Part shown: positions 2,851 to 45,225 of the stretch, piece by piece
Numbering within the stretch: position 1 is the stretch's first letter
Layout: every line of letters begins with the position of its first letter
NCBI GenBank assembly: GCA_013407085.1
Contig: JACCGJ010023559.1
Span: 186,001 to 250,000 of the forward strand
DNA: 64,000 bases
Direction: 5' to 3'
From: Atriophallophorus winterbourni
Lineage: Eukaryota > Platyhelminthes > Trematoda > Plagiorchiida > Microphallidae
The notes under the pieces: generated by a model
The model's database searches: none
What the model was told of the DNA's origin: nothing
The model's input: only the letters and a program-made list of their open reading frames with translations
Program-made: the position numbers and the translations under genes

Positions 2851-3979
2851 ACAATAATTCCTTATTTTCGTTGTTGATTTGGTCTTCCATACTTACAACA
2901 AAATCTTGTTTGAGCTAGTTGTTTCATCACTCCATGTGGAATCAATTTATAATTTTGTTGTTAACAATTTGGTTCATTCGAAGTTTGTTTAGGTTTTGAC
3001 TCCTCATTGCAGCAGAAGTCCGAGTCAATTCTCACGGATGCGAAGAATTTCCTCGCGATATTGAAACAATAAAAAACGCGGTCCGCCAACTAATTCGCGA
3101 ATATTCTTCATCCTTATGGAGAAGGTCGTTGATGAAATCGAAAGCTCTCAAGAACACAAACTTCCTAGAATTGGACAAAACAAAATTCGATTTTAAGCTT
3201 GATGAACTTCGTTGTGTTGACTTAAGCGACCGCTGTATCGAGGAGGTACACAGAATGGAAGCGTTTTTGCGGGTAAGTGAATTTGAAATTCATTTTTAGG
3301 AGAAAACAACTCCCGAAATAACTGTAACAGTCTGGAATGTGATGGAAAATGTTCGTGACCGATCGGCGAATCATAATCATGGGTTCCCAAAGATACATAA
3401 GGTGGGCGTCCCCCTGCGACCTATCGTGGATGGTATTGGATCTCCAACAAAGGAATTAGCAAAGCATCGCGCTCATTTGTTGAAACCGCTAGTCGGGAAC
3501 AGGGATTCTTCATTAAGAAGTCTTGATTTCGTTCGTCGCTTTAGTATAATAACGCTCGACTAGGATGAGATGATGGTTAGCTTCGATGTAAGCGCCTTGT
3601 TCTCGAAGGTGGACACCACGAGCGCTCTAGAATTAGAAAAAATGCACTTAATTCAGACGCGACATTGACGGATAGTACAAACTTGAGTGTACAACAAATC
3701 GTCAACGGTAATGCGATTTGTCTAAATATGAGCCACTTCTTGTTCAATGGACAGTTATAAAAGCTAAAGGAAGGCTTAGCAAATATATACACTGAGCATT
3801 TTGAAGAGTTAGCTCTGAAAAAATAAACTCTTCGGACAAAGATAAGATGGTGTTATGTCGATGATACACTGGTCATCATAAAACGCAAAAGATTGGAAGC
3901 AGGATAGTAAAATAAGCACTACGGTCTATCATAAGCCAAACAGATACGGTCTGCGGTACTCACAAACGCACCCCCAAAG

Positions 3980-4108
3980 AGTATTTAATTCAAGGCTCAC
4001 TGAACCTGATCTTACTGTTTCCACCCGATGACGGCAAACAGCCAGAAACCGGTAGTGGTGTGTAATGGATGGAGATGTGATCACCACAATACATTAGTAT
4101 TTAATTCA
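3980..4108 (+). mobile_element. Hammerhead-bearing mini-insert (family B) inside a PLE
   Basis: A 103-bp insert (3993-4095) is bounded by a perfect 13-bp direct repeat, AGTATTTAATTCA, at 3980-3992 and 4096-4108. Removing it and one repeat restores continuity of the host PLE frame (..QRVFNS-VAKS.., matching KRVFQSIAKS in the minus copy). The boundaries are therefore clear and the insertion is younger than the PLE. The insert is noncoding and centred on a hammerhead motif. Confidence 0.72.
4019..4060 (+). ncRNA. Hammerhead ribozyme motif (family B), near-intact
   Basis: Order on the plus strand: stem I strand CCAC (4021-4024); CCGATGA (4025-4031; consensus CTGATGA, one change); stem II GGC-AAACA-GCC (4033-4043); GAAA (4045-4048); CCGGT; A54 as the H17 position; then GTGG (4055-4058), which pairs exactly with CCAC. 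The UA before the predicted cut gives GUA, a valid NUH triplet. The U4-to-C change in the core should reduce activity. Confidence 0.62.
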
Positions 4109-5025
4109 GTTGCGAAATAGCTGTTGTACAAAGTCGAAAGCTTGTGCAGCGATGCCACCGATAAAAAGCAAGCCCATCACCAAGTTAGTCGTCGGCTTGC
4201 TTATCATGGTTACCCTAAGAGCCTAATTAAACGACAATTGAAACGTGTAAATTACCCAGCACCCAAAACGGAAAAAAGTTCGGCTTGCAACAGTTTCTAT
4301 ACTTTACGTTAAGGAATCGTCAGATGGGCTAAGTCGAATCTTAGATAATGCAGGCACACGAGTAACGTATAAAAGGGGTAGAACGCTCTATCCTCATTAA
4401 CGCATCTCAAGGATAAAACACCTTCAGGCTGCGCAACGAATTGCGTATATAAAATCAACTGTAAGGGTTGCTCGGGAGTATATATCGGACAAACATCCAG
4501 AGAACTCAGTACTAGGATAAGTGAACACAAAAATCGAATCCGTAAGCAGCCACGTAATTCCAGTGAATGTCAATCACTGATAAAATAATCCAGCACTAGC
4601 TGAACACGTGCTGGACACAGGTTACAGCATTGATCTTCATAACGTAGAAGTGATAAGGTGGGGAATAAAACAAACAAAACAAACAAGATAACAAAGGTTG
4701 GTAAAAATGCAGTCAATAAGGTGGATGGCGCTGATATCTCCACAATCTGGCTTCCGGTTCTGCAGCGGATAAACATTAACGTGCGTGACCCCTAGTGTGC
4801 GCACCGAGTACTGAATCGAGCTAATCGGTCAGCAGATGTCATTCACACCTGCCAAGACCCAAACAATTGAGGTACGCAGGGGTGGTGGCCCGTCAGTTGA
4901 TATTGATCGCGCCCGTCTATCTTACCGAACGCAGAACCCACCATGGGCTGTGCAGTTCTGAAACAGTTTAGGATTGGTAAGGTGAACGAAATTTAAGCTT
5001 GCTCTCTGTTCGTACTGTCACCGTT

Positions 5026-5068
5026 GATCTGACGAAGCTCCTGAGTCAGAAGCGAAACGTTACCATTA
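5026..5068 (+). ncRNA. Hammerhead ribozyme (family A), PLE 3' region
   Basis: CTGACGA at 5029-5035 and GAAA at 5054-5057 are both canonical. Stem II GCTCCTG/CAGAAGC has an internal mismatch. The predicted cut is after GTT (5059-5061), before ACC. Stem I is weak here (TTGAT against ACCAT). It sits at the 3' end of the degenerate + PLE and meets the tail of the next PLE copy. Confidence 0.6.
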
Positions 5069-5141
5069 AACTATTTGAATATTTTCGAGACCGATCGGGA
5101 GTCCATAATCATGAAAATAGAGTTTGCAATGAATCGGTTAT

Positions 5142-5424
5142 AGTAAGTTTTTGGTAACGTTTCGCTTCTGAACACAGAAGCTTCGTCAGACCAAGGGTGT
5201 CGGTACGAACAGTGTTCAGGTATAAATGGCATTCTCTTGACCAATCCTGAGTTCACTAAGCTACACAGGGGAGATCAAGATAGTTGATCACACCTCCTAA
5301 TTGCTGTGTTCATCCCTAATTGTTTATTAATTGTTCAGGTCAGCGGATGCCGACACACTGCTTACGTAATCATGTGCGTATTAGGTGTGATGTTCGTTAA
5401 TCCTAATCCGCTGCAAAACCGAAC
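5142..5424. repeat. Left arm of 283-bp PLE inverted repeat
   Basis: The sequence is nearly the exact reverse complement of 6603-6885 (equal length, 283 bp; I see one mismatch near 5198/6829). It contains the 3' UTR of the minus-strand PLE and a minus-strand hammerhead at 5151-5194. Penelope elements are known to have LTR-like repeats in direct or inverted orientation. Confidence 0.85.
5151..5194 (-). ncRNA. Hammerhead ribozyme (family A), near-canonical
   Basis: Minus strand, in order: TTGGT (5194-5190), CTGACGA (5189-5183), stem II GCTTCTG-TGTT-CAGAAGC, GAAA, C, GTT (5158-5156), then ACCAA (5155-5151), which pairs with TTGGT over 5 bp. Both catalytic boxes match the hammerhead consensus and the triplet GUU fits NUH. 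Stem III is only the self-complementary ACGU, so a dimer is likely needed for activity. PLE-encoded hammerheads of this type are established. Confidence 0.8.
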
Positions 5425-6721
5425 CCCCGATTGTTGAGATATTCGCCCCATCCACCTTGTTCAACGCATTCGCCCCAGCCTTTGTTATTTCAACAGCCTC
5501 GACGTGAAGACTTTCCCTATAAGATTTCACAAACCGTCTTATCACTTTCACGTTATCAAGATCTACGCTGTGTCCAGTGTCTAGCACGTGTTCAGCTAGG
5601 GCCGAATCCCGAATCAGTGATTGATATTCACTGGGATTGCGGGGTCGCTTTCCCACTCGTTTCCTGTGTTCGTTCAACCTAGTGCAGAGTTCTCTAGACG
5701 TTTTCCCAATGTAAACACCCGCGCAACCCTTGCAGTTGATTTGGTAGATGCAGTTCGTCGCACAACCTAAAGGAGTCTTATCTTTGAGATGCATTAATAC
5801 GGAGCGGAGAGTTCTACCTGCCTTATATGTTACTCTAATACCTGCGCTATTCAAGACTTGACTTATTCCTTCGGAGGCGCTTTTGACATACGGTAGAGAT
5901 ACCGTAGCTCGCCAAACCTTTCCCGTCTTCGGTTGCGGATATTTAACTCGGTTCAATTGGCGTTTAATTAAGCTCTTGGGGTACCCATGATTTGCAAGTC
6001 GGCGACTGACTTCTTCATGAGCTCGTCTCTTATCTGCTTCATCGCTGCAGAGGCGGTCAACCTTGTAGAATAGCGATTTTGCTATGGACTGGAATACCCT
6101 TTTAGGGTGCGCAGATGTGAATCTCAAAATGGCATCCGTGTCGATAGGCTTACGGTATACCGTTGTTCTTATCTTGCCGTTGTCTTTTTGCGCGAGACAG
6201 TCCAAGAACGGAAGTGTCCCTTCCGTAGACTCGGTTTCCTTTGTGACCTGGATTTTTGGATTCAGACGATTGAGATAACTATGAAATGCTTCTAGTCTGT
6301 TTCGCTTTATGATGACGAATGTATCGTCGACATAGCGCCACCATATTTTTGGTTTTAACGCTTCGTTTCTCAAAGCTATCTCTTCGAAGTGCTCCATGTA
6401 CATATTCGCTAGCACTGGAGAAATGGGTGAGCCCATCGCTAAACCATCGTTTTGCTTGTATAGCTGTCCATTAAATAAGAAGTGTTTCATATTTAGACAA
6501 ATTGCTACACCGTTGATGATTTGTTGTACACTCAAGTTGGTACGATCCTTCAGGGTCATATCGGAGTTGAGTGATTTCCTCACTAATTCTAACGCGCTTG
6601 TAGTTCGGTTTTGCAGCGGATTAGGATTAACGAACATCACACCTAATACGCACATGATTACGTAAGCAGTGTGTCGGCATCCGCTGACCTGAACAATTAA
6701 TAAACAATTAGGGATGAACAC
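5381..6721 (-). CDS. Penelope-like element RT-GIY-YIG endonuclease fragment, 446-aa ORF
   Basis: Uninterrupted frame of 446 aa. Residues 1 to about 40 are encoded by the inverted repeat (6603-6721) and are not true PLE protein. From about residue 41 the frame holds the second half of a PLE reverse transcriptase: NDGLAMGSPISPVLANMYME, then WRYVDDTFVI with the catalytic YVDD pair of Asp, then LPFLDCLAQK. Next come the thumb/linker (HGYPKSLIKRQLNRVKYP) and the C-terminal GIY-YIG nuclease of PLEs (CAGVYIGKTSRELCTRLNEH), with downstream EH/ALAEHVLDTGH motifs. The N-terminal RT palm/fingers are missing, so it is 5'-truncated and not autonomous, although no stop interrupts it. The best-preserved PLE in the window. 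Confidence 0.85.
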   Translation of the reverse strand: MFIPNCLLIVQVSGCRHTAYVIMCVLGVMFVNPNPLQNRTTSALELVRKSLNSDMTLKDRTNLSVQQIINGVAICLNMKHFLFNGQLYKQNDGLAMGSPISPVLANMYMEHFEEIALRNEALKPKIWWRYVDDTFVIIKRNRLEAFHSYLNRLNPKIQVTKETESTEGTLPFLDCLAQKDNGKIRTTVYRKPIDTDAILRFTSAHPKRVFQSIAKSLFYKVDRLCSDEADKRRAHEEVSRRLANHGYPKSLIKRQLNRVKYPQPKTGKVWRATVSLPYVKSASEGISQVLNSAGIRVTYKAGRTLRSVLMHLKDKTPLGCATNCIYQINCKGCAGVYIGKTSRELCTRLNEHRKRVGKRPRNPSEYQSLIRDSALAEHVLDTGHSVDLDNVKVIRRFVKSYRESLHVEAVEITKAGANALNKVDGANISTIGGSVLQRIRINEHHT

Positions 6722-6885
6722 AGCAATTAGGAGGTGTGATCAACTATCTTGATCTCCCCTGTGTAGCTTAGTGAACTCAGGATTGGTCAAGAGAATGCCA
6801 TTTATACCTGAACACTGTTCGTACCGAAACCCTTGGTCTGACGAAGCTTCTGTGTTCAGAAGCGAAACGTTACCAAAAACTTACT
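6603..6885. repeat. Right arm of 283-bp PLE inverted repeat
   Basis: Reverse-complement partner of 5142-5424. It is fused directly to the truncated 5' end of the RT frame and so supplies an artificial start. It carries the plus-strand hammerhead at 6833-6876. Confidence 0.85.
6833..6876 (+). ncRNA. Hammerhead ribozyme (family A), canonical core
   Basis: TTGGT (6833-6837), CTGACGA (6838-6844), stem II GCTTCTG (6846-6852) with CAGAAGC (6857-6863) and loop TGTT, GAAA (6864-6867), C, GTT (6869-6871), then ACCAA (6872-6876) pairing with TTGGT. All conserved core positions are intact and the predicted cut is between 6871 and 6872. The ACGT of the minimal stem III is palindromic. Confidence 0.82.
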
Positions 6886-8198: not shown

Positions 8199-11100
8199 GT
8201 AAATGCTATATTAGTACATAAACATGTAAATTTTCGTGTAGCTATACAAGCAAGATTAAATAATGTAACCAAGGGTACTGAAAGATGTTAATATTTGCAA
8301 GTAATTTACATATGTGTTTTCATAAATTAGCTAGAAGTCCTGTTGTCTCAGACATGATGGCGCAAAGAAGTTTCACGCAACAAATAATTGCTGTTTTGAT
8401 TTGCAAACAACCGGGAACCGGTTGTGGTGTATAAATGCAGTGGATTCATAACAGACCATTAGTTTCATAAATTGTAATTACATTGCATGGATTTGTTCTT
8501 CAGTTTGGAAATTATGCTGACAAAAGCACCAGCATTGAATCCCCCGTTTTCATTTCTGTGCCTTGACTTATTAAAAATCGAATTTTATTTCAATGCACTT
8601 TTTGACTCACCTACCTTCTACTTGCTTACCGTCTTCATGTGGCGACAGTTAAATCAACTCCAATTAGCCTTAAAACCGTGAAAAACCGGCAACGTTTAAC
8701 GAGAATTAGTACAACTAACTTCGATATTCGAGTACAGAGTCAAGTTTAAGTGTTCAAGATTATAAAGCTTATAAATATCCAACATATTACATTGTTCACA
8801 AAATATCACTTCACAGTCTCAGTCAAAGCGTGGTTCTTGGCTATGGTACTGCTCGGCTACTGGTTCGTGGATTCATACTACATAACAAGAGCTTCAAACT
8901 TATGTTGTGGCTCTTGTGATGGTAGAATGGATCGTATCCGTATTTCTAAACCCTATACTTTTCGCTCAGGGTCAAATTTATTACTACAAGTGATAGAGTG
9001 GATTTTCGGATCCCGAATTAATTCGAGTTTAACGCTAAATCCTATGGTGTTTTGCACCCATTTCTTCATTCCACGTTAATTGTTTGGTCTTGAGTCTATT
9101 CCTGTCTGGGTGTGAACGTAAGCATTGTTAAATAAAGAGGCTTGTTCACAAAATTGTTGAGAATCAAACACACGGACGGTGATTATAATCAGCTACTGCC
9201 AGATTAATTGCCATGGTTTGAAAAATATAATAATGCAGTGGATTTTACTTGAAAGGACATTTTTAGACACGTACCATATGTCATAAACACACGAAGTTAA
9301 ATATTATGAGATGTATAAATTATGATATCTAAATCCATCATTCTCAATATTTCCGAACACATCTTTCGAATTGATATTTACTACACTGTGTAACGATCCG
9401 TTGATTATAATAATGATAACTGATCTGCTGGTAGTTGATAGCCATAAATTGCTTGACGTATTCCCATGCATAATCAGGAATCATTTATATTTTACAATGA
9501 AACTTCTATTCTCAAATATGACCAATTTATTGCATCATATGTATGCATCCCGCTCATCACGGTGTATATTTAAGGCAGCTTTGACAGCTGAACAAATCAA
9601 CATTATACTGCTGAGCACACGTGGCCAAGGTGGGTTGTTTAAACGTCATGGAACAGTCGACAGTTCCCTACTCCACGAGATTTAACGAATCGCATCTCAT
9701 CAAAATAGTCATCTGTCTCGATTAGAATAAAAACTGTCTGCTCGGTGTTCCACCCTGAGCCGAGTGTTATTAGCATTTTTTCACTGATAAAGTGAGATTT
9801 TACGATTGAACCATGTTATATCACGTATAAGAGAAAACGCATTTTGAAACTGATTGTGTATAATAATGAACTAACTGGGTTGAACATGATATTCAAAGTT
9901 CATCTCATTTCATCATTTTTCGGAAACAGGATAACGATTTTGCTTTAAATAATCAACGAAGCACTTCGAAAACATTGAATCAAAACGTAGACCGTGTGGA
10001 GATTTCAAAAAATGAATCACAGCGGGCCAACGTATCCGAAACTGAAGGCGTATTCATCCTCCCAGGATCTCTGAAGGCAGAAAAGCTCATGAGTGTAAGG
10101 AATTCCAGTAAAATTGCTGTGTTATAGAATGAATGTTTCACTAGGGCATTGACACCGCATTAATGTAGTAATCACTGTCGAAAACGAGAATTACCCGGTA
10201 AATTGCATGATTACTTATAGTGACTTGGTGTAGTAAATGAGAGGTCAACACGTTTCGGACAGAACGTTTATTACGTCAATTATTAATCATACGCCTCTTT
10301 ATTTATATAAGAACCGTTTGCCCACATCACGCGGCGCTCACACCTGCTGCGGGTTATCGGCCGACTTCTGTTTCATTATTCATTAATGATGCAAACATCT
10401 CAGGTCATCACTTCCTGGGTGGCAATTGGTCAACATCACCACTTTTCGGGTCATCATGTGATTTTTGGCCATTCGGTTCGCTTCTTGCTCTTTTCGCACC
10501 CGGGCGGGGGATTCGACTGACCTTGACGAGATGATAATGTGCGCCGACTATTACGCGCTCCGTTCCCTTCATTAGAATATACTTTACTTTTTTCATGGAT
10601 AGTAATAAAAGTAAGGTATTACATATAATTTAATACGTTCTTCTACATTAGTTTCATAAAACAACGTAACGAGTCAAAGATAGTATTTGACGCTAGTTGC
10701 AAAAATAGTATGTAATATCACTGAGTTGTAATGAATAAACTATTATTGACGAGTACAATGATACACAAGTAAATGTTTTAAATAAAATGGTGGCGGGTGT
10801 CTGTCATCGTCAAAGGGCGAATATTATACGCTACAAAACGAATTATTTGATTACAATAATATCGTTTTTTTCTTTAAACTGTTCCATTGTGTTGAGCATG
10901 AACTTGAACTAAAAACGTAATCCATAAAATGATATAATGTGTTCCTATAGATTTTGTCCGTTATTGAAGTCGAGAAATGTGATTATCTAGTGTGGTCTGA
11001 TAAGTTTGATTCAAATCGATTGCCTCCTTTAACTTAACTCCACAGGAATCCGCTGCTGCTGTGCAGTCAGAGGACAAAAGCACCGAAAATTCCCGTTCAA

Positions 11101-14100
11101 CGAAGGAAAAAGTGAAACTCAAAAAAGCGAAAAAGAAAACAAGCGAAAGTACGGAAGAAATTCATTCACCAGAAACACCAATGAAACCAGCCAAATCCGT
11201 CAAGTTGTCTCTAGAAGGTTCAGGGGATACGCATAAGGCTGAATTATCTGGTGTAGGTTAAGTTAATAGAATAATCCCTGGAAGTAACTAAATATTTAAC
11301 GATTTACATGTTATACGGTTCTATAGTGCGTTGTTTGAAAATCGGAATAATTTTATACGATTTCTCAATTCAGTGTTCCGAAAAGCAGATATGATCCGCA
11401 AACTAACACAAATTGCATCGCTGGAAAAACATGATGAAATACATCGATCAAGAAACGTCGCAACTTCAAGCGAGCAATGTAAATCCATTGTTAAAACAAT
11501 CCCTATAACCCGGCAAGAATAGCTAATACTCAAAAAATCAAACTATTTATATGGTTGCTCATCTATTGGAATTGTGATTGTTTCTTAGTAATGTACACGT
11601 TAGGCTCATATTTCGAACCGATAACTAAGCGAACTTTAATAAAAACCAATTCATCATTTAAAACTCAATACAGTAAATTATTGTCACAGTGATGTTAGTC
11701 TTCGGTAAAATAATCAAGTGACCTCGAATTTAAAGGAAGTCTGACACTGCTGACAATTTGCCTGACTTTATTTTCACAGTGTAACATATTTATGACAGGG
11801 ACAAACACGAGTCTATTTACACCAACATTGTAAAATTATTTTTTATCAAGTGAGAAACTTTCCATTAAAAATGAATACTCTTGATCTCTTTATATATATA
11901 TATATCGAAGGAGAAAGAGAGATTTGCCTTATTATGTCCCTTACTAAGTATAATTTTTATACGATCAACGAGAATACATTTTTCAAAAGAACTCCAATGC
12001 GCAGTGAGCTAACTCAAAATGCGCACAATAACTCTCAATCAATATTTAGGATTATCCTACCACTTGGATGTGAAAGTGTTACTTGATTGAATAAATGTAA
12101 GTCGTAGCAGTCCACGTTACTTGTTCGGGACAATGGCCAACGGGCCATTCAGCTTAGTAGTCAACCAATCGTTTTTGAGAAGCAACGTCGACATAGCTTT
12201 GCACCATCGATATCATATAGTTTGAAAGCAGCTAATTTCTTGTCAAAATCAATCCAAATTCGCGAATTCGCTCTTCAAACTCGTCTGGAAAGAACATCAC
12301 GATCAAGATTCACCTGCAATTGACAAGTTATACTGAACGAAAGGATGCTACGGAACTAGCATGTGTTTTATATTAGTTTCATCAATTATTTTATCATCCC
12401 AGTCCAGACCGATGAAAGAGTCGAAAGACAACTATATGTAATCTAATGTGTCGCGCACATCTCAGCACTTACACACCACAACCATTTTTCAATATTCAAA
12501 ATTCTGGTAGTTTGCCGTCAGTGAGCTTTGTAACAGCGGAAAATTAGTAAACAAAGTGAGACTTTGAACCAACTGTTTTATAGGGTTCGTACAACGAATC
12601 ACGCTGTTCAAACACCGAACCACAAAGTAATTCCTCGCCAAGCACTCAACAACTATATGTGTTTTCATTGTTTTGCTTTTGCAGTCCTGATAGCGTATTT
12701 TAAATTACTATTTTCATCAAAAACGTACGAAAGACCATAATTTCAATCAATTGATTATATGAATTTGTGGATTTTCATTTAGTTTCATGGCTATGACCTA
12801 ATGTCACTTTTGCCGCATTGGACTGGTCAGACCACGTTCACATTCACAAATGATGGGGCCGTTATTAAAACCCTCAAGTCAATCAGGGCCAGTGGTAAGT
12901 CAATCAATCAAAACGCGAGAAATCTTTCACATATATATGTCCAACTATTCACCATCAGCTATAAGTGAGAGTAAAACTTTTAAGTACAGGAAAAATGAAC
13001 TGTGCCAGCACTTGCTATTTGGTATGGAATATTGGTTGAACCAAGTAACAACGGAAAAGATGAATATTTATAGAAAATCGAATCTCGAGACTAATGTTAT
13101 GTATGACGCGCAATACTAATCATGGTATTTAAAAGCAGATTCGTATCGTAAATACTATTTATGCGTTGAAATGCTTAAAGCCGAACACTATTTTTATTTT
13201 GTACAAACCATATACGTATATTGGGCGTAAAATTTCAAGTTGTTTATGTCCACCAGGTTAAAGCATAAATATTCGGTGCATACTTGGTGAAAAATGTGGT
13301 TTTGTATCACTGATTGATGATCCATGGTGTACAAAAGTGTAATTAAAAAGTGAAGTCATTTCATGCTTTGAAAAGCATAGAAACAAAGGAGGCTTGTTGT
13401 TGCACACCTTTCTCCGCGATTGTAATCGACCACTGTTTTCGTAATATTTATCTCAAAACGGCAAGTGTTGAATCAATGAGGCCCCAGAACATTGATCATT
13501 CGAAAAATTGTATTCGTGTAAATGTAGAGATATCGATAGTGTCCTGAAATTATTCATAAATGAATCATCTAAGTCAAAGCATCATGAACAATATTTAATC
13601 TAAACGCAACATAAAATCCGTTGTCTGGTTTTTCGTGAAATTTAGCGTTCATTTCACTGGAATTTGGTCTATTAAATATCGTGGGACAAGTTTAATCGTG
13701 TGCTGTACATTCGAATCCTTCCCTATAATCGGATCAATCCAACTGATTTACAGGCAAAGCACAACTGCGTGTTATATAATTTCATGTAATCTATTGAAGA
13801 TTATTTCAAACATTCGACGGGGTTGTTAGGCATAGTCATTCAAAGAAAATAATATGAGTTAATTAGATATCATATGAAAATATTCTGAAGCATTTATTCA
13901 CACTTTTTCCAGTAAAAATCATTTATTCGTGAATTGCGTTGAAATATAAATTTTAACGGATTTTCCATCGGAATATGTTCGGGACCGATCGTACATTCAT
14001 AATGCATAAAAGTTTGAGCGCAATAAGTTAGACAGGTATTGGGTAACGTTTCACTTCTGACACAGAAGCTTCGTTAGACCAAGGGTGATGGTCAGGACAT

Positions 14101-17100: not shown

Positions 17101-20100
17101 TTAGTCAATTTGATGCAAGTAAGGCACCATAGATTATAAATTTAATAGATTGTAACATTTTATCTACATCCAGTTTGCAATTTTCAAACCTCATGTCACG
17201 CGCTGTGTTAGTCCAGCAGTAGCATCAAAGTTCTAAGTTTGTAGCCTTGTTTAACTGATAGACTCGTAAGAAATTCGTAATACGAAGCACGTGAGACATT
17301 TTACAAAATTACTCTCTGGTACACGGATTAAACTCATTAGGCGAATAATTTCTGATAATTTTAATTTAATTGAAGTTACAACTCAAATTAGTTTTAATGG
17401 ATATCCTCAAAACGGGAAATGTTTTTCTTTCAATGGTTCAGGACGTGCATCTTGACGTTAACATAAAATAAGCATCAGTCAACAATGATGGTAATGAATT
17501 CAAAGTATATTTTACTTGTTTGCATTCAGAACGATATGGAATTAATACATTTGTTTCTCTCTAGCTTGAGGCCAATTCCTCTGAAGAAACCACAACACCA
17601 CGAGGAACATACACTTCGCTAACAGCGAATTTCACTGATGGGATCGTGCTAAATGTGACCAAACCCTGTAATCAGGTTTGTTAAATGCAAATTATGTCTA
17701 TGCTTACCAACGATCCTACCGATCTGAATCTGAGCAAATCTTTTGGCGGCTGTCCACCATCTGGCAAAATGTTTTGGAAGAGTGCTTTCAATTGATTTAT
17801 TAAGAAACTCAACTGAAACTATACAGAATTTACCCATTGTACGTAATACTAGATTGTTTAACGCATTCAAATACTACGAGCTAACTAGCAAGCGTTTAAT
17901 GCACTCAACGCATCTCTCAGCCATTCTTATCAATATACTACAAATTGTAAACAAGTTTATCCTGATTATCTGTCCTTATGCTTTCTTCGTACTTACCACA
18001 CAACTTTCTTATGGGGTTGTTCAATCAACATGGCTCCAAAGAATGTTTTACCTTTAATCAACGTCAAGTGAAATAGGTGCTTGAGAATAATATACGGAAG
18101 ACATTGACTTCAGGCAGTGCTAATACATCACCAGCAAATAATATAATGAGAATCAAGTGAATCTGTACACATTTGCGATCCACCGTTCATAGGTCAACGA
18201 GGATGTCACAATCGAGTTTAAACTAAGTTTTATTGAAGGTGCAATGAATGCTTATAAAATTCCATTTAATTGATAAAGCACAATAGTGGTTTGAAGCCGG
18301 ATTGGTATTTTTTTCCAATAGTTGTGGGCTACTCTGGAAACTTCGCTGACTTCATAATTGTAGTTGATTGTTAATACAACAAAATCGACCGTGTGATGAT
18401 GGTTTTTTTCGATTGAAGATTTTACGCTGAATTTAATGGGAAGATTTGCAGGCTCATTTCAAGCATTTGCAATATTTAAATTCGCAACCCATCTTACAAT
18501 GGCATGCACATCCTCGGTGATATGTGTATTTCGTTCATCATCAACACAGGTAATTTAGCGTTCACAAATTCTAATTACAACCTAAAGGTACATTTTGTGG
18601 TGTTTAAGAGTCTATATATGCTTATTCGTAATTGCCTTCAACACACGAACGAAATTCCCATTAACTAGTTTCACTAGGCAATTATTCACTTGTTAATTTA
18701 TCAGTATAAGCTCATTCATATCTACTTTGGATGGATTGATTATATTGTAGGCCAATGTACAATGCGCTTCATCGAAAACTAATCAGCAATCTACTTTTCA
18801 CTCCAGATATCTGAAAATGAGCACGTTAAAGAGAATCACACCTCGATCGTTTCGTTATCCACTCCCAGTGGAGTAAGAATGAAAATTAAACAACTCAGTC
18901 GTCATGAAGGTGAGACTCGTTATCACTTACAACTCGATTAAGATGTGACACATTTTGTGACCGCGCGTAGGCAAAAGTGGTGTTCACATTAAGAATAGTA
19001 TTGCAGAGCATTATTCATGCCATAATCACTGTCACCCTATCCAGCGACGTGTTCCATTCCGTAATAATGCCAGCCTGATCGATGAGAATTTTGTAAAACG
19101 AAATCATGCTTTTAAACGATAATTGGATGCCCCACGACCAGCTTCGCGCTGTTTGCACTCATCCTGTACGATCAGGATCGCATGCCACGAAATGCTACTT
19201 TTGTTTCACGTATCAATCTAATGTGTGCGAATAGCATGAGTTCGGTGACAGTTGCATGCGTTAGATGGATGACATTTCAAGTGTCACTTAATCTACCCCC
19301 TTCCTCCACTAGGTTTGTTAGTGGAGAGTGGAGAGTGTTAGTGTTGAAATGGGCATTTAAATTATGCCTTCCTACTGATTAAATTTCGTGTAAAATTTTA
19401 TTTTTAAATTGACCCAATATTATTTGCCAATTAATTAAGTTATGGAGATGGAAATAAAAAAAATGTTTTTGTAGGGTAAGTACTGAACCAATATTATGAA
19501 ATCAATATGCACATTCCTTAACAGTTAGGTGGAATAGCTAATTTTAGTTCCTTTAACCGAAAGGGTTATGGTTCCACCAAAAGTCGTGCATAAATATCCT
19601 ATGAAGCACGATAACTATAGATATATTTTCACACACAGAATCTCTATTTTTGTGCATCTGAATACACCCATCAAATCATTCGTCAGCAATTATTTTTCTT
19701 TAAACAGGCTTATATCCAGCAGAACTGGCGCTGCCCGTTCTTCGTTCATTTTGGCTACAACCCGAGAGTCTTTTGTATATACACACGAGAATGGAATTTT
19801 CTAAGCCACAAAATATAACGCTGTTTGAATTGTTCTTTCAACGTAACGAAACTGAATCACAAACAACTGAGATGCTAAGGTACGTAACAACAGAAGGAGT
19901 TGTTATCAGGATCTTAAAACATATTGGAGAATACTCTAATTCTGGCTCTGGAGTAGAGGTAAGTATTCATTTGGATCGGAAATATACCAGATATACTAAT
20001 ACTTAAACCTCTACTAACGACTAAACGTATACTTTCCAAAACATTTTATGACAGATTCTCTACCCGAATGGCGACCGAATGGAATATAACACTTTCGAAT

Positions 20101-23100: not shown

Positions 23101-26100
23101 ATGGAAATAATAATGTATACAAACATGGTAAGCCTCACAATTATTCTTGGGAATATTTGTTAACGTACGAGTGATTCTATTAATTGAAAGTTGCAATGGG
23201 ATAAATTTGAGCAAACTTATCTCTGTTACTGTGATTTTTAACTCATTTCAAATGATAATATCAAACAAGTGGTTGATGCTGCCTAAACATAAATTTGGCT
23301 CAATTTCGAGTTTCTTATTGATTTTTCAATGCTAAATTAATTAAAAATAATGTCCATTTATTATTAATGAAATTGCATTGCCATGGATTCTCAACCCATT
23401 CAACCATTGACGATAAAAAATAACTGTCCTTGTTCACCATCGACGTGAAGTCAATTTGATGATCATGCTCAATTATTAATGTTATATATACAGGAAATAG
23501 AATTTATCTCAACATTTAGATTTATTTGTGCCAATTTATCAGTTCTAAATTAAAAATTAAATTAAAATTGTCCACCATTTTTTATCAACACTTCTACCAC
23601 TTAATGATTACTGCAAGTCCGGCCCCATTTTATTCTCGACGCATAACGCAACCGACGTAATAGAAATTAGAGGTGTATATTTTGAACAAGCAATGTCGAT
23701 GTCAATGTCAATGTCAATTCAATTCAATTCAATTTTAATGATCTTAAAAAATATCGCAATACAAACAACCTCGGAATAATATGTGAACTACGAATAATAT
23801 AACAAGCAAAAATGGGATTTGGTTGCTTACTGAGCAGTTCAAGAATCAGGTAAAAATCCAAATGGCGGATTTTGTTTTCGATTGGTTGGATGACAAATAT
23901 AGATGCATGGGGTCAAGATGTCTCGTTTTTGTCTATGTATCAAGACTTCTTTTGAACATTTGTTGATTTGGTGAATTTACAATATAAGGAACATATAAGA
24001 TTTTTGATGATATGTTAAACATCGATCTGTTTCGGGGTTTGATGAAAATTCCCTTTTGTTGCTTGCTCATAAGAGTAATAAATACTGTGCCACACAAAAC
24101 AGTGCAATTTTTCAATCGGATCACGACATAGAATAAGATGACAGATTTGATCTACGAATTTGTGGCATTCAAATATCCGATTAAATTAATTTGATTTTCA
24201 TAACCGTCGCGTTGTTATCTATCTAATATCCGCCCGAGCTCATCAACAAGGTAAGTTGAGATGATTTTCAATGATCCTGAATTCAGTGCTTATGGATCGA
24301 TAAATTTGAAGCATCAATGCTACCGTCAAACTGAAATATCAAAGCCAATAAAAAAGGCATTCTACAGTGATTCCATCTAACGTTCCACTACAAATGCGTT
24401 AAATTCAATATATTCAATGTATGACTGACACCACTGTGCCCATTGTTTTCCTTTAGCGTGTGAAAGATACTGATATAAAGAACAATAGTTAACGAAATCC
24501 TTCGTAATGTTGCTTTGATCTTTCCGTATAGTTATTCGTGTGGTAAAGTTTCGTCAATTTCGAAATCGTTCATTAATGATCTTCCATATTTCTCATTGAT
24601 TTTTAATAAACTGACTATTTTTACTACGACGTCTCACGCTACAAACAATCTGATCGTGTTGATCCAACATGATAAGTGCACACAGCACGAAACCAGTAGT
24701 TGTCTAAACAAGATGGCAAACAGTGCATGTGGGGATTTTTAGCTTCAATATAACCATTTCTCAATCAACTGAATTTTAATCACTATTCGTTTTCTTAATA
24801 ACAAGGTGTACAGTTATAACGGCAATAAACGTGGGTTCCACCAGTTACAGCTACTTGAAACCTGAATATAATTAACAATAAATGTTGCTAAACTGCACAA
24901 TTATTAAGGAAGTTATATATTTTAATGCATTTTAGAAAATCTGGATAACAGTGCAACGTGTAATCATCAAAACGCCAGTGTTGATGATCGTTATCCACTG
25001 CTGTTTTACAACAAACTTGGCTGCACTGAATTTCGCCAGCTTAAATCTGTTGATTGCGTGAAAGAAATGCTTTTTAACTCTGCAAACGTTAATGAGCATG
25101 CTACAAATCTCAAGTTTCTTTCAATGACTCAAATATGGAATTCAAACAAGAAGGAATTTGTAGAAATATCGGATATATTCAATGATACCGAAACGGTGAG
25201 TTATAATATTGCACAGAAAATATATAGGTAAATAATTTTTAACCATATATACATATATATATATGATAGATAAACTTTTACTCAGAGCAAAAGCTTTCGT
25301 GTAGCCTGCTGTGCTCTTCGAGAATCGACTAATGTTCCTGATGATTAAACGATCACTAAAGGCTGTAATCTTATGCATTATGCTGCATCTTATGTATTTA
25401 TGCATTTTACCTACGCACGCGAAGAGATGGCAAGCTTTTCAACCTTAACTGGTTGAGAGCACAAACCAAGGCACGAAATGTGCTAATCCGTGACCAGCTG
25501 TTTGCCGACGATCTATCCATTATTACTCACACTCAAGAGCAGTCGCTAATGGACTGTTTTTCGTCGGCATGCAAAGACTTTGGGCTAACAATCAGTATGA
25601 GCAAGGCCAAAGTCCTCGGTCAAAGGAACTGTTCCGCCTCCCATCATCACTGTTGGAAACTGTTATCTTGAATCAGTACATCATTTCACATATCTTGGTC
25701 CAACCATTGCGGATAACCGCTCGCTAGACAAGGAGATAGATAAACGGATTGGCAGAGCAGCTGTCTTTCTGTCCCGATTGAACTGTTGTATTTAGGGTAA
25801 CCGCAAACGGACTGTAAAGACAAAGATGATGGTATACAGCGCGTGCATACTAAATTCTTTACTGTACGGCAGTGAAACCGGGACCACCCAATAAAGACAC
25901 GAACGGAAGCTGAATGCTTTCCATCTACGAAGCATCCGTCGTATCTTGAACATATCATGGATGAACGGAGTGACTAATGCTGAAGTGCTTTCAAAAGCTG
26001 GTCTACAGAGCATGTTCACCCTATTGCGACAGCGCCGCCTGCGGTGTTTGGTCATGTCTACAAAATGGAAAATGGTCGTATTCCGAAGGATTTACTCTAT

Positions 26101-29100: not shown

Positions 29101-32100
29101 TGGTGGAACTGCTCACCATACTGTATTGGCATGTATTGTTTATACATGTGTATCACTGTTTGCGGAGCTTACTAATACTCGTTGTCTTTGCTGTAGAAAT
29201 ATTTGAAGTAAGCTAAAAGTTAAATGCCAAGTTTGTGCCGAGCAAAGTCGGAGATTATATGCTTAGTAAGTGTAAATACATCAACTTTTATAGAGCGACA
29301 AAGGCTTCAAGTTTTTCCGGTAACAAGGCAAAATTATTCGTGTATCAAATCAAATCAACTTTAGTCTCAGACACTTTAAACTACGCCAGGTCGGAGAGCC
29401 ATTACATTACAACAGCTCAACATCTGAGGAACTTTCCGGTTCTATGTGCAAAATTAAAGTTGATACAAATAAGCAATGTGGCCACAAACAACCAAGATCA
29501 CGATTACATTCGTTCTACAACCGAAGAGTCAAGGATCGAGGAGTTCGTTTCAGACGAGTGAACTAAAAACTGTGAACTTACATTGAACTAGTAAAACAAT
29601 CTTATACTTTCAAGTTAAGGTTTGCAATGTCACTGTGACCAAAAAGTCATACATGGTTGTGCCCTTTTGATACACCAAGGTTAAGCCGTTCCGAGTAAAC
29701 AGATTGTTTCTCTGAATCAGCAGGCATTCACTCGTTTCGAATATAATGATTTTCGAATGAATTTTTCGTCACATCGTCGAAAACTTTGTTCCGCATTTGG
29801 ACTGTTACTTGAGTAATAATAAACTATATAATCCTATGGGCGAATGTGGATAGTTTATGAAACTACTGAATGCTTACTTTCATACTCGTGTTTACACGAT
29901 TAGTTGCATGCGCAATCTCGTTCGCCGAACATTGACTTTAATACTCATTAATTTTCGCAAGGTTATATGATGCGCTACGTGATCACACCACAAATCTGCT
30001 CAATTGCATAATGTGTGATACATTTGGGAAGTGTGAAACATCTCTCGAGGAAGAAAATTTATCCAAAATACGGAATAGAATGTTCAATATGAATATCCCT
30101 ATCGAAGCAACTGTTACCGAACATAAAAATGAAGTTTTTATCGAAGAAACCATTTCTGAAGGAAGTGAGTCGCTATTTCCGAGTGTGATATAATAAATTC
30201 CGGTCAATTTTTATTATATTTCAACAAAGCGTTACCTATTGCGAATATGTTATGCAATAGGTAATGAAATTTCCTTTGATGTATATATCTTCCAGTGAAA
30301 TAATTATTCAGATACGCGGGTTGAAATGATGTTATTTGTTTATAGAAGCTCATTTGCATGCATCGCCATCACACGCACACACACCACGACCGCTCGTTCT
30401 GTTTGCACTTATCAAGTAGGGACAGTACGATCAGGATCCGCATGCGATTGAAACAGATGTTCATTGTTATTATTCAAGGTAATTTGAGGTTTTTGATGGT
30501 CTAAAAAGCAACACGTAACAATAACCATCAAATGGTAAAAATTGAAATGTAAGTGTATGAAACAAGATGAGGAATTACACTAAGCAGTATATAAGTGTCC
30601 GGAAACCAATAATTCAATATAGGTTCGTCTAATTTCGTTTTAAAATCAGGGAAGCTAGGGGAGTGACCAACGGTAAAAGGTAGACTATTCCTAGTAAAAC
30701 ATACACGGATAGAATAAAAATAATTTATACAGTTCAGGTGGGAATGGGGTACCACCGGTACATATTCATGGATCTGATAATTTCTCGTATCCCTTCGCGT
30801 GAACAAATCCTGTAAGGGATGGCTTAAGTTATTGAATTTTTTATAAAGTAAGATAAATTCAGTTGAGCTATCCTTTCATTATAAGGCTTATTTCGGATGC
30901 TGAGAACTAGTTTTGTTGAGCGGTGGTAGATTCGCTGCATAAGTTCAACATCCTTCTCGAGCCACGGAGACCATAACTGCACACCGTATTCCATGACTGG
31001 TCTCAAGTATGTATTCATGATCCTTGGGAATATCTTGGGCGAAAATTTCCCGAATACCCGTTTGAGTAGATTGAGGACACGTATGGCTATTTTAAAGGCA
31101 GTGTTAGTTTGAAGTGAGCTTTTTAAATTGGAGCATATCCAGACACCCAAATCTTTTTCTGCACTACAATTTGCAAGGACATGTGAACATATATGGGATG
31201 TTAACTCTACTAGATTCCCCACATTCATGAGCCTGCATTTGTTGAAGTTAAACAGCAGGTTGTCCTCCAACGACCAGCTGTGAAGCGTATCAAGATCTTT
31301 TTGTAATAGCAGCTAGTCTCCTGGATTAGGGATGCGACGTGATGACCTTATGTCGTCAGCAAATAACGAAATGTTTCATTGAACAATTTCCAGTACCTCA
31401 TTAACATAAACCAGAAAGTGGATCGGACCAAGGACTGAACCTCCGGGAAGCTCCGCTAGTTGCTGCGATTTTTTTGATAATGCATCGTCAACAAGTACCA
31501 GGGTAGTGCGATTCTTTTGGTAGTCATTTTACCAATTCAATAACTTTCCGGTGATACCAAGCCTTTCAAGCTTCTGCAGTAGTAGGCTATGTTTAACATG
31601 ATTAAATTCTTTGGAGATATCTAGGTAGCAAGCGTGTATTGCTTGCCCCTTATCTAACGCTTGTGTTCAATCATATAGCGTTATTAGTAAAATAGATAAG
31701 CAGGAATAATTCTCTTAAATTCTATGCTGTTTTCTCGAAAACAACTGATTATTTTCGAAATGTTTTATTAAATCTTCAACAATGAGGTTATCAAGTAATT
31801 TGGAAATCACAAGTGACAGTGTAACAGGTCGGTAATTAGAAGCATAAAAAGCGATTTCCACCATTATAAATAGAAGAAATTATTCCGCGTTTCCAATCTG
31901 TAGGAATCACTTCATTTGTAAGTGTTTGTTTGAAATGGTATGTGAGTGGTATGTATAGCAAATTCGCACATCGCTTCAAAGTTACCTATAATTAAAAATC
32001 TACAAGTGAATCTGAAAGTAACCATGCGAATTCTGTCGGGAATATAAGATCTTGTACAGACGGTGGGCGATATACTACTCCCAAAACACCGTCTTTGCCG

Positions 32101-36360: not shown

Positions 36361-36429
<69 letters not shown>

Positions 36430-38984: not shown

Positions 38985-40316
38985 AAAACCTGGATCCGTT
39001 TACTAAGGGGCAATGTGTCCGTACATGAGTTTTGGATATGGCTAATATCGAATCTCAAAAGTTCAATCGAAGTGAGCTCCGAATTTGTCCTCAGAAACTC
39101 AATAAAAAAAATTGAATTTAAACTAAGAAGCCGAACTCGTAAGTGGTTAACGGTACGAAACGTTGCTTGGCGACACCATCGGCAAAATCCATCATCAGAG
39201 ACCTGGGAAACACTACGTTTACTGCGGAACAAAGTAAACAAATTTGTCATCTAAGACAAGTTGTGCTTCCAAGAAGTGATATCAAGCATGATGGAGCGAT
39301 AACCCCAAAATAATATATCGTATGGTTAACGTTCAATCTAAGGTGAAACCTAGAGTAGCGTCAGTGAACACATCAGCTGGATCAACAACAACAACTGCAG
39401 CAGAAACTGCTAATGGTTTAGCCACGTTTTATTCATCTGTATTCAACCCGATAGAACATACAATAAACATCCCAAATCAAACACGTTCAAACACGGTTGT
39501 CATTAGTGAAATATATGTCATTTCGAAACGCGCCCTTCAAGGTTTTTATTAATCTTAAAAACGGAAAGTCTCCTGGGGCCAACGGAATAACCCCGAAAAT
39601 ATTGAAGCAATTTGCGAGTTTGCTATACAAACCACTGACTTACTTGTTCAAGCAAACACTGGCAAGTAGAGTGATTACTACAGATTTGAAACGCGGAAAC
39701 AATGTTCCTATTTACAAAAGTGGAAATCGCCCCGGTGTTTCTAATTACCGACCCGTTACTCTGTTACCTGTGATTTCAAAATTACTTGAACGACTCATTG
39801 TTGACGATCTAATGAAACATTTTGAGAATAATCAGTTACTTTCGAGGAACCAGCATGGATTTAGACGTAATTATTCCTGTTTGTCTAATTTACTGGTAAC
39901 GCTAGATGATTGGACAAAATCAGTAGATAAAGGACAAGCAATACACCCGTGCTACTTAGATATATCAAAAAAATTCGATCGTGTTGAACATTCCCTACTA
40001 CAACAGAAGCTTGAAAGGCTTGTATCACTGGAAAGTTGCTGAATAAGCTAAATGACTACCTAACAAATCGCACTAACCAGGTACGTGTTGATAGTGCATT
40101 GTCCAAACCAATCACAGCAACTAGCGAAGTTCCCCAAGGTTCCGTCCTTGGTCCGATCCTCTTTTTGGTTTATGTCAATTAAGTACCGGAAATTGTTCGA
40201 TGTAACATTTCGTTATTTGCGGACGACATAAAGATATGGCGCAGAATTCGTAATCCAGAAGACTGTCTGCTATTACAAAAGGAACTTGATACGCTTCACA
40301 CCTGGTCGTTGAAGAA
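38985..40316 (+). mobile_element. CR1-like LINE, RT half, interrupted at 40316
   Basis: Plus strand. The linker RNVAWRHHRQNPSSETWETL (39160-39225) precedes an RT region: NGKSPGANGITPKILKQF, NYRPVTLLPVISKLLERLIV, QHGFRRNYSCLSNLLVTLDD and CYLDISKKFDRVEHSLLQQK (39500-40040, 181-aa frame). A frameshifted PQGSVLGPILF-LFADDIKIW region runs to 40316. There the frame stops in mid-element (TWSLKNK) where a minus-strand CR1 tail begins. Its own 3' end is not found. Confidence 0.8.
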
Positions 40317-42300
40317 CAAGATTCAAGATTCAAGATTCAAGATTTATGGTTAAAAAAGCAATTAACTTTACAATAACCACAGGGTGGAAATATAGGTACA
40401 AATGTATATATATATAAGTATAAATAAAATCAAAATCAATGGGACAATGATAGCTTATTAATAGTTTTGGGAAAAATACGGATTAGCTCTCATATAATCG
40501 TCAATTTTTGATTTGAATATAGATAAGCTGTTTGAGCTTACCGAATCGGAAGGTAGGGAATTCCAAGCAAAGCACACACGTACGGAATAAAAATACCTGC
40601 GGCAGTTCCGTTTGGAATGTGGTATTTCCAACTTGCAACCATGGCCACGACTGTTGCTGGAAGTTCGAAGGTGGAATAATATATCCAGGGGGTGGGAAAC
40701 AGTAGTTAGTATTTTGTATGCGAGGATGAGATCACCTCACATTCTCCTTTGTGCAAGTGTACTCATTTCCAGTTGTCTGAGTCGCCTGGCGAATGACATA
40801 TTTTCGAGACCAATGACAAGCTTAGAAGCTCTCCGGTATATGCGATCCAGGAGTAAGATGTCTTTTTGGAGCCATGGTGTCCAGGCTTGTGCGGCATAAT
40901 CTAGAACCGGGTGTATATATGTATTCATCATGAGAGGAAAACACCCCGGGGAAAAACGTCCAAATATCCGCCGTAACATGCCGAGCAGCCGAGACGCGCT
41001 TTTGTAAACGGTTTCGCATTGTAGACCATTTTTCAAACTGCCGCAAATCCAGACACCTAGGTCCTTTTCATTTTCACTGTACTACAGGTTAATGTCGCCG
41101 AGCTTGTATGTATAGGAAACCCCAAGGTCACGACCAATCTGAATCATCTTCGACTTTTGCATATTCAGTGACAGTTTATTTTCAGATGACCAGTTGAACA
41201 AAGTACTCAAATCGTTTTGCAGCAAGATATTATCGTCAACATTTCTGATTTGCCTCCATACTTTTACATCGTCAGCAAACAAAACCATCTTTCTATCACT
41301 TGGTAGTGGAATATCGTTCATATAGACTAGAAACAGTATTGGTCCAAGCACTGAGCCATGTTGAACTCCGCTAGTGACATCGATGTTCTTCGATAATAGG
41401 CCGTCCACACGAACTCGGATGTGTCTGTTGCTGAGGTAATCTCTTAAAAATCCGTATAGTCTTCCAACAACACCGTATTTCTCTAGCTTGTTCAAGAGTA
41501 AATTGTGATCAACTCTGTCGAACGCTTTAGAAATGTCCAGGTAGCACGCATGAATACAGCCCCCCGCATCTACAATCCCCGTCCAATCGTCTAAGCTTGT
41601 CAGCAAATTTGTTAGATAAGAGCGATTTCTGCGAAATCCATGTTGGGCAACTGCCAAAAGTTGATTCGTTTCCAGATGTCGCATGATTTCTGCGGTTATT
41701 ATTCGCTCAAAAACTTTTGATACCGAAGACATCAAGGTCACCTTCCAGTAATTTTTAACATCAGAACGGCAACCACCTTTGTAAATGGGTATTATTTGTC
41801 CCAGTTTCCAGACTTGTGGCACTACGCCAGCTTGGAGCAAATTTATTAAACATGCAAGATAGAGGTTCAGATACCTGCGCGTGACAGGTTTTGAGCAGCT
41901 TTGGAGTTATCTCGTCTGGTCCTGGAGATTTATTTACGTTTAATTTTCGTAAGTGCTGAGCTACCACCATCAGAGTAATCGATACTTCACTCAAGGTCGG
42001 TCGGTCGGTCAAGTCGAACGATTAGCTCCTGATCAGGCTTCATGGATTTCGGCGCAAAAACTCCGGCATAAAAGTCTGCTAACAGGTCAGTGGTCTGATT
42101 TATGCATTCTGTGAAACCGGATGAAGTTTTAAGGGCAAAGACTCCTGGTTTAATATTTGTTCTATCGTTTACAAGTCTATACAAGAGCTTCGGATTCTAG
42201 TGCATCTGAGAAATCAATTGCGATTGGAACGCTTGTTTATCATTTCGAATTAAGCTGATAACTTTGTTTCGCAGTCATGTAAATTGTGCCCAAGAATCAG
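40317..42300 (-). mobile_element. CR1-like LINE, 5'-truncated, well preserved
   Basis: Minus-strand element of about 2 kb. Frames 42184-41987 and 42012-41761 hold the upstream linker (NKSPGPDEITPKLLK). Frame 41840-41082 holds 252 aa of RT: NYWKVTLMSSVSKVFERI, QHGFRRNRSYLTNLL, HACYLDISKAFDRVDH, GVQHGSVLGPILFLVYMNDI, and MVLFADDVKVW with the catalytic Asp pair. Frame 41036-40737 is the thumb (FGRFSPGCFPLMMNTYIHPV). It ends in a 3' UTR and a (ATCTTGA)n tail at 40344-40317. Few frameshifts, so younger than its neighbours. Confidence 0.85.
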
Positions 42301-42668
42301 CTGTGTTGGAAGCCATTATGCCACACAATTCTCAACTGTGAATGGGTATTTTATTAGTTTATTACACTGATAGTCAACGTGCACATAGAAAATGGATAGA
42401 GCAATAGAATGTAAACTTTTAAACGAATATGGTACTAGATGTCTGAAAATCCCGCGGCCATCACATAACCATAACTCGCTCATTTGTTTCCCAGCAGTGG
42501 GAATTCCTTTAGAGTTTGACGCGGACCACATACGGTGCAATCCTCTTTCGCACAAGCAATAAATTATGATAAGCAACTGAAAATACATAAAAATATCATG
42601 AAAAATTTGCAATAATGAACAGGAGTGTTTTTGTTGAAATCGGAACGAGAATAAGAGGGAAAAATTCG

Positions 42669-42793
42669 TATTTCTATGCATCTCCTTAACAAGTCGTACA
42701 CATCACAACCGGTTTCGTGCTGTTTGCACTCATCACGTAGGGGCAGTGCGATCAGGATCCGGATGACTGGAAATTGAAGGATATGTATTCCTA
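42669..42793 (-). mobile_element. Hammerhead-bearing mini-insert (family B)
   Basis: Flanks GTATTTCTA (42669-42677) and GTATTCCTA (42785-42793) differ at one base and bracket a 107-bp insert. The minus strand reads CCGGATCCTGATCGCACTGC, CCCTAC, then the hammerhead core and GTGATGTG. The 5' block matches copies at 19,1xx and 30,4xx. Confidence 0.6.
42703..42745 (-). ncRNA. Hammerhead ribozyme motif (family B), near-intact
   Basis: Minus strand: GTGATGA (42737-42731; consensus CTGATGA), stem II GTGC-AAACA-GCAC (perfect 4 bp), GAAA, CCGGT, T, then GTGATG. Stem III is the palindrome ACCGGT. The single C3-to-G change breaks the conserved C3-G8 pair, so cleavage is doubtful. Confidence 0.62.
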
Positions 42794-43049
42794 ATTTTAA
42801 AGGAGCGTAGTCTCGCGAGCTATCGCCAGTCTGTCAAACAATATTTTGCGTTGTTGAATTAGCTAAATTGGAAAATTACTTGTTCTATACACAACTTGTT
42901 TCACCTGTGTATTTCACCGACTGACAGACAAAATTCGTATGGTAAAATGCTGTATTGTGATTCTTTTTTATAAATTTGTATTGGAACTGCAAAAAATTAA
43001 TTTTCCCGCGCGTAAGCATTTTTGTTTTGAGATAAACTTGAGCTTTCAA

Positions 43050-43210
43050 GAAAATTCAAGAATTTATGGTCACGAAAAGCACATAGCTTCACAATTACAA
43101 TAGCATAGTAAGTATTCGTTCAAGAAAAAAGGAATAGCGAATAATCGTTGAATGTCACGTGTAGTCCAGCTTAATATTTTGCACGATTATCGGTTACAAT
43201 CATTTTTCTT
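43050..43210 (-). mobile_element. CR1-like 3' UTR fragment
   Basis: AATTCAAGAATTTATGGTCA and AAAAGCACATAGCTTCACAA match the minus-strand 3' ends at 33826 and 40344. A severely truncated solo 3' end. Confidence 0.6.
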
Positions 43211-43219
43211 TATAGTTCT

Positions 43220-45020: not shown

Positions 45021-45026
45021 TAGTGC

Positions 45027-45225
45027 CAGAACTCAGAACTCAGAACTCAGAAAATTTTATGGTAGAAAAAGCATTAAGCTTAACAATTACCATAGGATGA
45101 CAAGGAATATGGAGCATAAAATTATATATGTATATATAAAATGTTTCAAAAATCAATAGGGCATGGGTTACTCAACACCAAAAGCAGAGGTGGAAGTAAA
45201 GTAAAAACGGATTTAACAACTGACC
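45027..45225 (-). mobile_element. CR1-like 3' end with (TTCTGAG)n tail
   Basis: In element (minus) orientation the 3' UTR ends CCTATGGTAATTGTTAAGC then TTTTCTGAGTTCTGAGTTCT at 45062-45027. The same UTR and heptamer close the plus copy ending at 62692. Confidence 0.75.

Follow-up and report, generated by a model that had tools for sequence, protein, structure and literature searches.

A 103-bp insertion inside a decayed Penelope-like element (PLE) of the fluke Atriophallophorus winterbourni is a partial copy of a 240–246 bp tandem, retrozyme-like repeat that carries one minimal hammerhead per unit, and the sub-unit copies of this repeat were probably made at their DNA targets by the enzyme of a resident PLE.

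The insertion, hereafter C1, was found in a window of 64,000 nucleotides (contig JACCGJ010023559.1, positions 186,001 to 250,000 of the forward strand), within which all coordinates are given. The original prediction, made from the letters of the window, had described an insert of ~100 bp with a perfect 13-bp target-site duplication (TSD), and this description holds: 103 bp at 3993–4095 are bracketed by AGTATTTAATTCA at 3980–3992 and 4096–4108 (13/13 match), and C1 is a retro-insertion with a 13-bp TSD. The TSD score is equalled by 0.7% of 5000 random window places in a control that takes the best local match in equal geometry and that we call loose. The 5' boundary of C1 can be placed anywhere within 4 nt, because the final TTCA of the TSD also fits the unit's own TTCAAGG. 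The predicted continuity of the PLE frame without the insert was likewise borne out: in tblastn with the PLE2 ORF, a single frame runs through the C1 site once the insert and one repeat (together 116 bp, no multiple of 3) are removed, and an insert-free PLE paralogue at 6175–5994 (− strand) aligns to both C1 flanks. The decayed PLE around C1 carries further stops and gaps, so that this host copy is dead anyway. The features of the insertion are as follows.

3638–4780, + strand: decayed PLE ORF hosting C1 (tblastn of the PLE2 ORF)
3980–3992, + strand: 5' TSD of C1, AGTATTTAATTCA (sequence match)
3993–4095, + strand: C1, insertion of less than one unit of the retrozyme-like repeat, equivalent to native unit ~137–241 (as locus L001, 92% match to that 241-bp unit)
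4021–4058, + strand: minimal type I hammerhead in C1, with stem I CCAC/GTGG, stem II GGC/GCC and loopless helix III CCGG
4054..4055, between the two bases, + strand: predicted hammerhead cut site, from the hammerhead fold, well within the insert
4082–4095, + strand: site A in C1, CACCACAATACATT, a recurrent 3' end of insertions and putative reverse-transcription start
4096–4108, + strand: 3' TSD of C1, AGTATTTAATTCA (sequence match)

When the genome was searched (537,331,230 bases in 15,840 contigs, window included), the 30 loci best matching the insert often showed shared sequence continuing beyond the segment at either end. The native unit, taken from locus L026, measures 241 bp, with C1 corresponding to unit ~137–241 and the predicted cut falling after 200. 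Fifteen recognisable hammerheads occur in 4.5 kb of locus L095, spaced 242–246 bp apart except for two wider gaps of ~2 and ~3 units, and the unit spacing in L096 is 240–243 bp; solo pieces, dimers and arrays are all found. L095 lies at a contig end, and longer, satellite-like arrays are possible. Patterns tolerating up to 2 mismatches matched 8,770 genome places for the 5' half of the unit (4446+4324), 2,661 for the 3' half (1328+1333) and 923 for the unit-to-unit junction (471+452), as against 0 genome matches for each of the three patterns in a reversed-sequence control.

These copies bear directly on the reading that the original prediction had put forward, a minimal stand-alone ribozyme element of ~100 bp whose ends are defined by RNA self-cleavage. 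A stand-alone 103-bp unit had been favoured on the window data, from the left end of C1 and two relatives, and both ends of the 105-bp form of the repeat do recur in independent TSD-flanked insertions; the genome copies overturned it, since in many of them the segment continues into the 240–246 bp tandem repeat, of which the 103 bp of C1 are therefore a partial copy. Self-cleavage as the source of the ends was also rejected. From the established hammerhead fold we take the cut to lie after 4054, 62 nt inward of the left end and 41 nt inward of the right end of C1, and among 53 genome copies (sampled as described below) a 5' end falls within 2 nt of the cut (unit 199–203) in one, L047, where an inverted piece precedes it. 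This reading is now very improbable. The original prediction had set against itself the picture of internal pieces of a longer ordinary repeat that lack TSDs and end at random; half of that picture applies, as the copies are pieces of a longer repeat, whereas TSDs are present and the ends are non-random.

Six copies had been claimed within the window, where we find C1 and seven weaker relatives, six of them by pairwise BLAST from C1 (E 4.8e-9 to 0.013) and one, C8, by profile alone; C7 is borderline in the profile search (E 0.058). Five of the eight copies went into the window profile, whose E-values are circular for them; the pairwise BLAST E-values are independent of it. Other window copies are members of an older sister subfamily, which has the upstream part of the unit in common (L051). 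Within the window, C1, C3 and C6 appear to have a common left end. Flank comparison yielded no TSD above chance for C2, C5, C7 or C8.

117–200, − strand: C4, relative truncated just ahead of stem I, with an 11/11 TSD (AAACAATCTAC; score reached or exceeded at 3.2% of random places) and a weak Rfam Hammerhead_1 match
8402–8449, + strand: C5, degenerate relative (BLAST, profile)
12440–12524, − strand: C7, internally rearranged degenerate relative (BLAST, profile)
19111–19190, − strand: C6, older sister subfamily relative with a 13/16 TSD (score reached or exceeded at 7.3% of random places)
24648–24702, + strand: C8, degenerate relative (profile only)
30345–30446, − strand: C3, older sister subfamily relative (BLAST, profile) with a long imperfect TSD (score reached or exceeded at 0.02% of random places)
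42680–42768, − strand: C2, older sister subfamily relative (BLAST, profile)

Elsewhere the window holds a perfect (AT)n microsatellite of 32.5 copies (36363–36427), a number of LINE-like reverse-transcriptase frames in both orientations (39467–53077, by eye; two match Pfam RVT_1) and, in one long open stretch, a DEG/ENaC channel of the FMRFamide-activated type with flatworm relatives (58726–60537), which has 70% identity to Paragonimus westermani and 55–67% to the other twelve of its thirteen best matches, mostly named flukes, and so places the window in a digenean fluke.

The hammerhead of C1 reads CCAC-CCGATGA-CGGC-AAACA-GCC-A-GAAA-CCGG-TA-GTGG and, with its helix III CCGG lacking a loop, is by its predicted fold of the minimal PLE type. 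Stem I pairs exactly (4/4) and a single core base departs from consensus, C for T at position 4, both as first described; in addition, the base pair 10.1/11.1 is C-A, and with these two departures the C1 copy is probably inactive. A descriptor that keeps the C1 spacing but leaves position 4 free, devised after C1 was seen, has one match in the window and 0 in 25 Markov controls. Rfam gives no match in the whole window at gathering thresholds, and even at E 10 the C1 hammerhead is absent from the list; at relaxed E a sister copy at 187–146 scores 20.7 bits (E 2.7), while the intact sister-subfamily relative in L051 reaches 27.8 bits against Hammerhead_1 (E 0.0027), under the gathering score of 34. 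Among 116 distinct units of the young subfamily the core is intact in 68, core and stems I, II and III together in 34 (the 10.1/11.1 pair excluded), and the standard 10.1/11.1 pair is present in 11; the 15 units of the sister subfamily have an intact core in 2 and the standard pair in 12. The C-A mispair of the young subfamily thus speaks against an efficient ribozyme as far as can be judged from sequence. Hammerheads with a weak helix III are described elsewhere as acting as dimers (PMC7761336, PMC7229834). The single-strand fold of the C1 insert is not better than that of shuffles (z 0.72), and the hairpin ahead of site A has z -0.63.

The ends of the repeat were examined in 57 loci, each with an exact match to the 3'-half pattern, among ~100 places listed and taken in listing order apart from one stretch; dropping the duplicates L046, L054, L073 and L082 left 53 copies. 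Their 3' ends fall at unit 236–12 (site A) in 41, at unit 112–121 (site B) in 6 and elsewhere in 6, the predominance of A being partly the effect of selection, as the 3'-half pattern itself terminates there. Of the 12 copies that extend beyond site A, 6 terminate at site B (p 5.9e-6). Site A lies 41 nt 3' of the hammerhead cut. In 28 further blocks within the loci, 13 end at A and 3 at B, with no significant enrichment of B (3/28, p 0.11); without two anchor blocks (L029, L035) and five repeated places, 9/21 end at A by eye. The 5' ends, for which the sample had been picked by 3'-half match only, are scattered, with a peak of 11/53 at unit 132–141 (TTCAAGG), ~65 nt before the cut (binomial 9.5e-6), although at least one of these eleven is a junction to an inverted piece (e.g., L045). 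A second 5'-end cluster lies at unit ~181–206 in L036–L092, near the 3' half of the hammerhead, where the folded ribozyme might strongly arrest reverse transcription.

Duplications of 7–17 bp flank repeat copies; in 22/57 loci (21/53 without duplicates) the TSD exceeds the 95% level obtained from swapped pairs. Among 21 copies picked because their 5' end coincides with TTCAAGG or lies within a few nt of it, 14 reach a TSD score of at least 7; three of the 21 gave no result in this scoring, and a separate TSD scan was positive for two of these. By eye, the element's own TC or TTC lies inside the duplication in 9 of the 14, an overlap that suggests formation of the 5' junction by microhomology annealing.

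Inverted copies also occur in the sample, in which 17 non-duplicate junctions place an inverted piece immediately ahead of a forward one. The inverted piece has its outer end at A in 9/17, at B in 2/17 and elsewhere in 6/17 (p 9.4e-10 for A and B jointly). By reading, end pairs of the A/B kind occur in seven inverted copies (L037, L038, L040, L053, L055, L066 and L092) and A/A pairs in L042, L068 and L083, while the remaining inverted copies have at least one end elsewhere; the TSDs of head-to-head copies were mostly judged by eye. One such insertion can be compared with a near-identical empty site: L033 (1447–1617) differs from L093 by a 163-bp insertion with an 11-bp TSD, composed of inverted unit 51–117 and forward unit 137–241, with flanks matching L093 at 99.6 and 100%. 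Over a wider stretch, L033 aligns to the window contig at 96.6–99.9%, so that it may be an allele or a recent duplicate. This presence/absence pair is evidence of recent retrozyme activity.

Inverted, TSD-flanked copies could also arise if the tandem unit were moved by a LINE, through twin priming, rather than by a PLE. LINE-like reverse-transcriptase frames are present in the window, TSDs of 7–17 bp suit LINEs as well, 5' truncation is common, and LINE insertions too show 5' inversions. However, twin priming by a LINE would not be expected on its own to fix the second start at one internal site, and in 11/17 junctions the inverted piece has its outer end at fixed A or B. An end motif in common with four PLE loci also points away from LINEs, in a comparison that took in PLE tails. 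A LINE as the mover therefore seems distinctly unlikely.

The PLE sequences resident beside C1 comprise an open frame and three hammerheads.

5029–5063, + strand: PLE-type hammerhead, CTGACGAAGC..GAAACGTTAC
5154–5189, − strand: PLE-type hammerhead
5381–6739, − strand: PLE2 open frame of 452 aa, RVT_1 29.4 versus a Pfam cut-off of 29.6, with a GIY-YIG-like stretch, GVYIGKTSREL (by eye)
6838–6873, + strand: PLE-type hammerhead

Pieces of pseudo-LTR (pLTR) and hammerheads in opposing orientations (5029+, 5154−, 6838+) lie at 5029–6873, with the PLE2 ORF enclosed in an inverted PLE arrangement. The PLE hammerhead occurs at 1,477 genome places (at most 1 mismatch), some as opposed pairs. PLE tails were compared in five loci taken for the purpose and in chance matches, with ends called by divergence, not by TSDs. 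Four PLE loci (L099, L101, L017 and L019, the last with L067 as its duplicate) diverge immediately after TACYTTGC, and a degraded PLE (L034) carries TACATTGC; tails without the motif are those of L102 (TACCTTTT) and of the window copy (TAGTTTA), while L098 and L100 diverge earlier. Site A reads TACATTG and site B AACTTTG. The native unit contains the form WACHTTG at three places, with last bases 44, 115 and 242 (window density 0.58 per kb); at the first of these no insertion end was seen. A short end motif common to the fluke repeat and most of the PLE tails compared is suggestive, the motif being short and derived post hoc from these same sites.

The unit itself shows no sequence similarity to the pLTR of the window PLE (best alignment E 1.3), and descent from that pLTR was rejected on this ground. 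The unit might still be the pLTR of another, autonomous PLE family, its solo and tandem copies being debris of that family and no retrozyme. The pLTR-like anatomy, including the minimal zero-loop hammerhead, would agree with this, as would the pLTRs of 181–218 bp reported for PLEs (PMC3846280). Against it stand array units that directly succeed one another at 242–246 bp spacing, and the search for PLE ORFs abutting the retrozyme block, which found none besides L001, L002 and L033, where the retrozyme insert sits inside a PLE; this is a weak test, as it covered 102 loci with one PLE query lacking the N-terminal part. The nearest other PLE ORF match lies ~150 bp from the retrozyme block (L094, by reading). 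We regard this alternative as unlikely.

Mobilisation by a PLE is the reading that we consider most likely, and it would account for the fixed ends and the inverted copies together. From the observed repeat, its arrays and copy number, its ends, TSDs and inverted copies, we infer the PLE enzyme, the role of A and B as reverse-transcription starts, the RNA 5' end and any ribozyme activity. Array transcripts of the unit would be bound by PLE protein and reverse transcribed at a DNA target by the resident PLE enzyme, so that C1 likely moved in trans, as had been proposed. Synthesis would begin at an internal position of the RNA, either site A (...CAATACATTG, 41 nt past the hammerhead cut) or site B (...AACTTTG), which lies ~120 nt away from A round the unit, and would proceed back across the uncleaved hammerhead. 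Its preferred stop would be at TTCAAGG, ~65 nt ahead of the cut and perhaps the 5' end of the RNA; other copies would be truncated or would run on for one or more extra units. Priming from both target strands would yield a head-to-head inverted copy. The 105-bp form would then be the stretch between the preferred 5' end and A, with longer copies gaining whole units, and it corresponds to the 'solo pLTR' of PLEs in that it equals the segment common to the two ends of a longer copy.

The template could also be circular, as in the published retrozyme model, in which monomers are cleaved, closed by ligation and then copied around. A periodicity of one unit and insertions of dimers suit circles as well as array transcripts, whereas the preferred TTCAAGG 5' end suggests a linear RNA end and the young-subfamily hammerhead is mispaired beside its core. 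Insertion from circular RNA is possible but doubtful; such a template can be combined with mobilisation by a PLE.

Metazoan retrozymes, platyhelminth carriers included, are already known. Non-LTR retrozymes of animals are described as non-coding tandem repeats of 150–450 bp whose units each carry a type I hammerhead and which occur as dimers to long arrays with TSDs >4 bp, and PLEs are regarded as a strong candidate helper from co-occurrence and common features (PMC7229834, Cervera and de la Pena 2020). The fluke repeat agrees in its type I hammerhead per unit (one per 242–246 bp in L095), its length of 240–246 bp, its dimers to multimers and its TSDs >4 bp. Unlike the mostly canonical hammerheads of metazoan retrozymes, its helix III CCGG is loopless, as in PLEs; a canonical hammerhead is not an absolute criterion, since amphibian retrozymes with a weak helix III are reported (PMC7229834). 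The fixed internal ends, solo sub-unit and head-to-head copies of the fluke repeat are absent from the retrozyme description in the accessible text of PMC7229834. Among schistosome repeats, the SM-alpha / W36.2 SINE-like W36.2_W001 is given as 335 bp (PMC8490949) and the SM-alpha hammerhead as fast (PMC6155905); the fluke repeat resembles SM-alpha / W36.2 as a dispersed repeat with a type I hammerhead, a likeness by description, not sequence.

As to insertion anatomy, the fluke copies appear comparable to PLEs, by analogy, in their direct and head-to-head inverted TSD-flanked copies and in their 3' ends at two fixed internal sites, A and B, the putative reverse-transcription starts. The work of Cervera and de la Pena in 2014 is reportedly among the sources for PLEs with pLTR, tail and minimal hammerhead. 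PLE insertions are described with direct and inverted pLTRs, 8–10 bp TSDs and an optional tail (PMC3846280), the tail lying between two reverse-transcription start sites, with a minimal hammerhead 5' of the start site, and solo pLTRs also occurring (PMC3846280, PMC11167929). Purified anole PLE protein is reported to reverse transcribe from two internal sites and to extend both strands, hammerhead cleavage being unneeded (PMC11167929). Unlike PLEs, the fluke unit has no ORF, being at 240–246 bp too short for a reverse-transcriptase ORF, its units abut in arrays, and its sequence is unrelated to the pLTR of the window PLE.

Within the literature searched, by titles and abstract openings with few subscription papers covered, no PLE-mobilised retrozyme in flukes was found; within that scope the PLE-like insertion anatomy of a retrozyme repeat is new, and it supports a PLE helper. 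More broadly, we see an even chance that animal retrozymes parasitise PLEs: their RNA would mimic the PLE tail through a WACHTTG start motif just 3' of a minimal hammerhead, PLE protein would prime both target strands at two fixed RNA sites, A/B head-to-head copies would record this double-strand priming, and the hammerhead would be a passenger without need to cut. The finding bears on which enzyme moves animal retrozymes, a question that the literature leaves open as far as the consulted text of PMC7229834 goes. With thousands of copies in one genome, the helper question becomes testable through sequence statistics, and it is also open to the existing in vitro assay for PLE protein.
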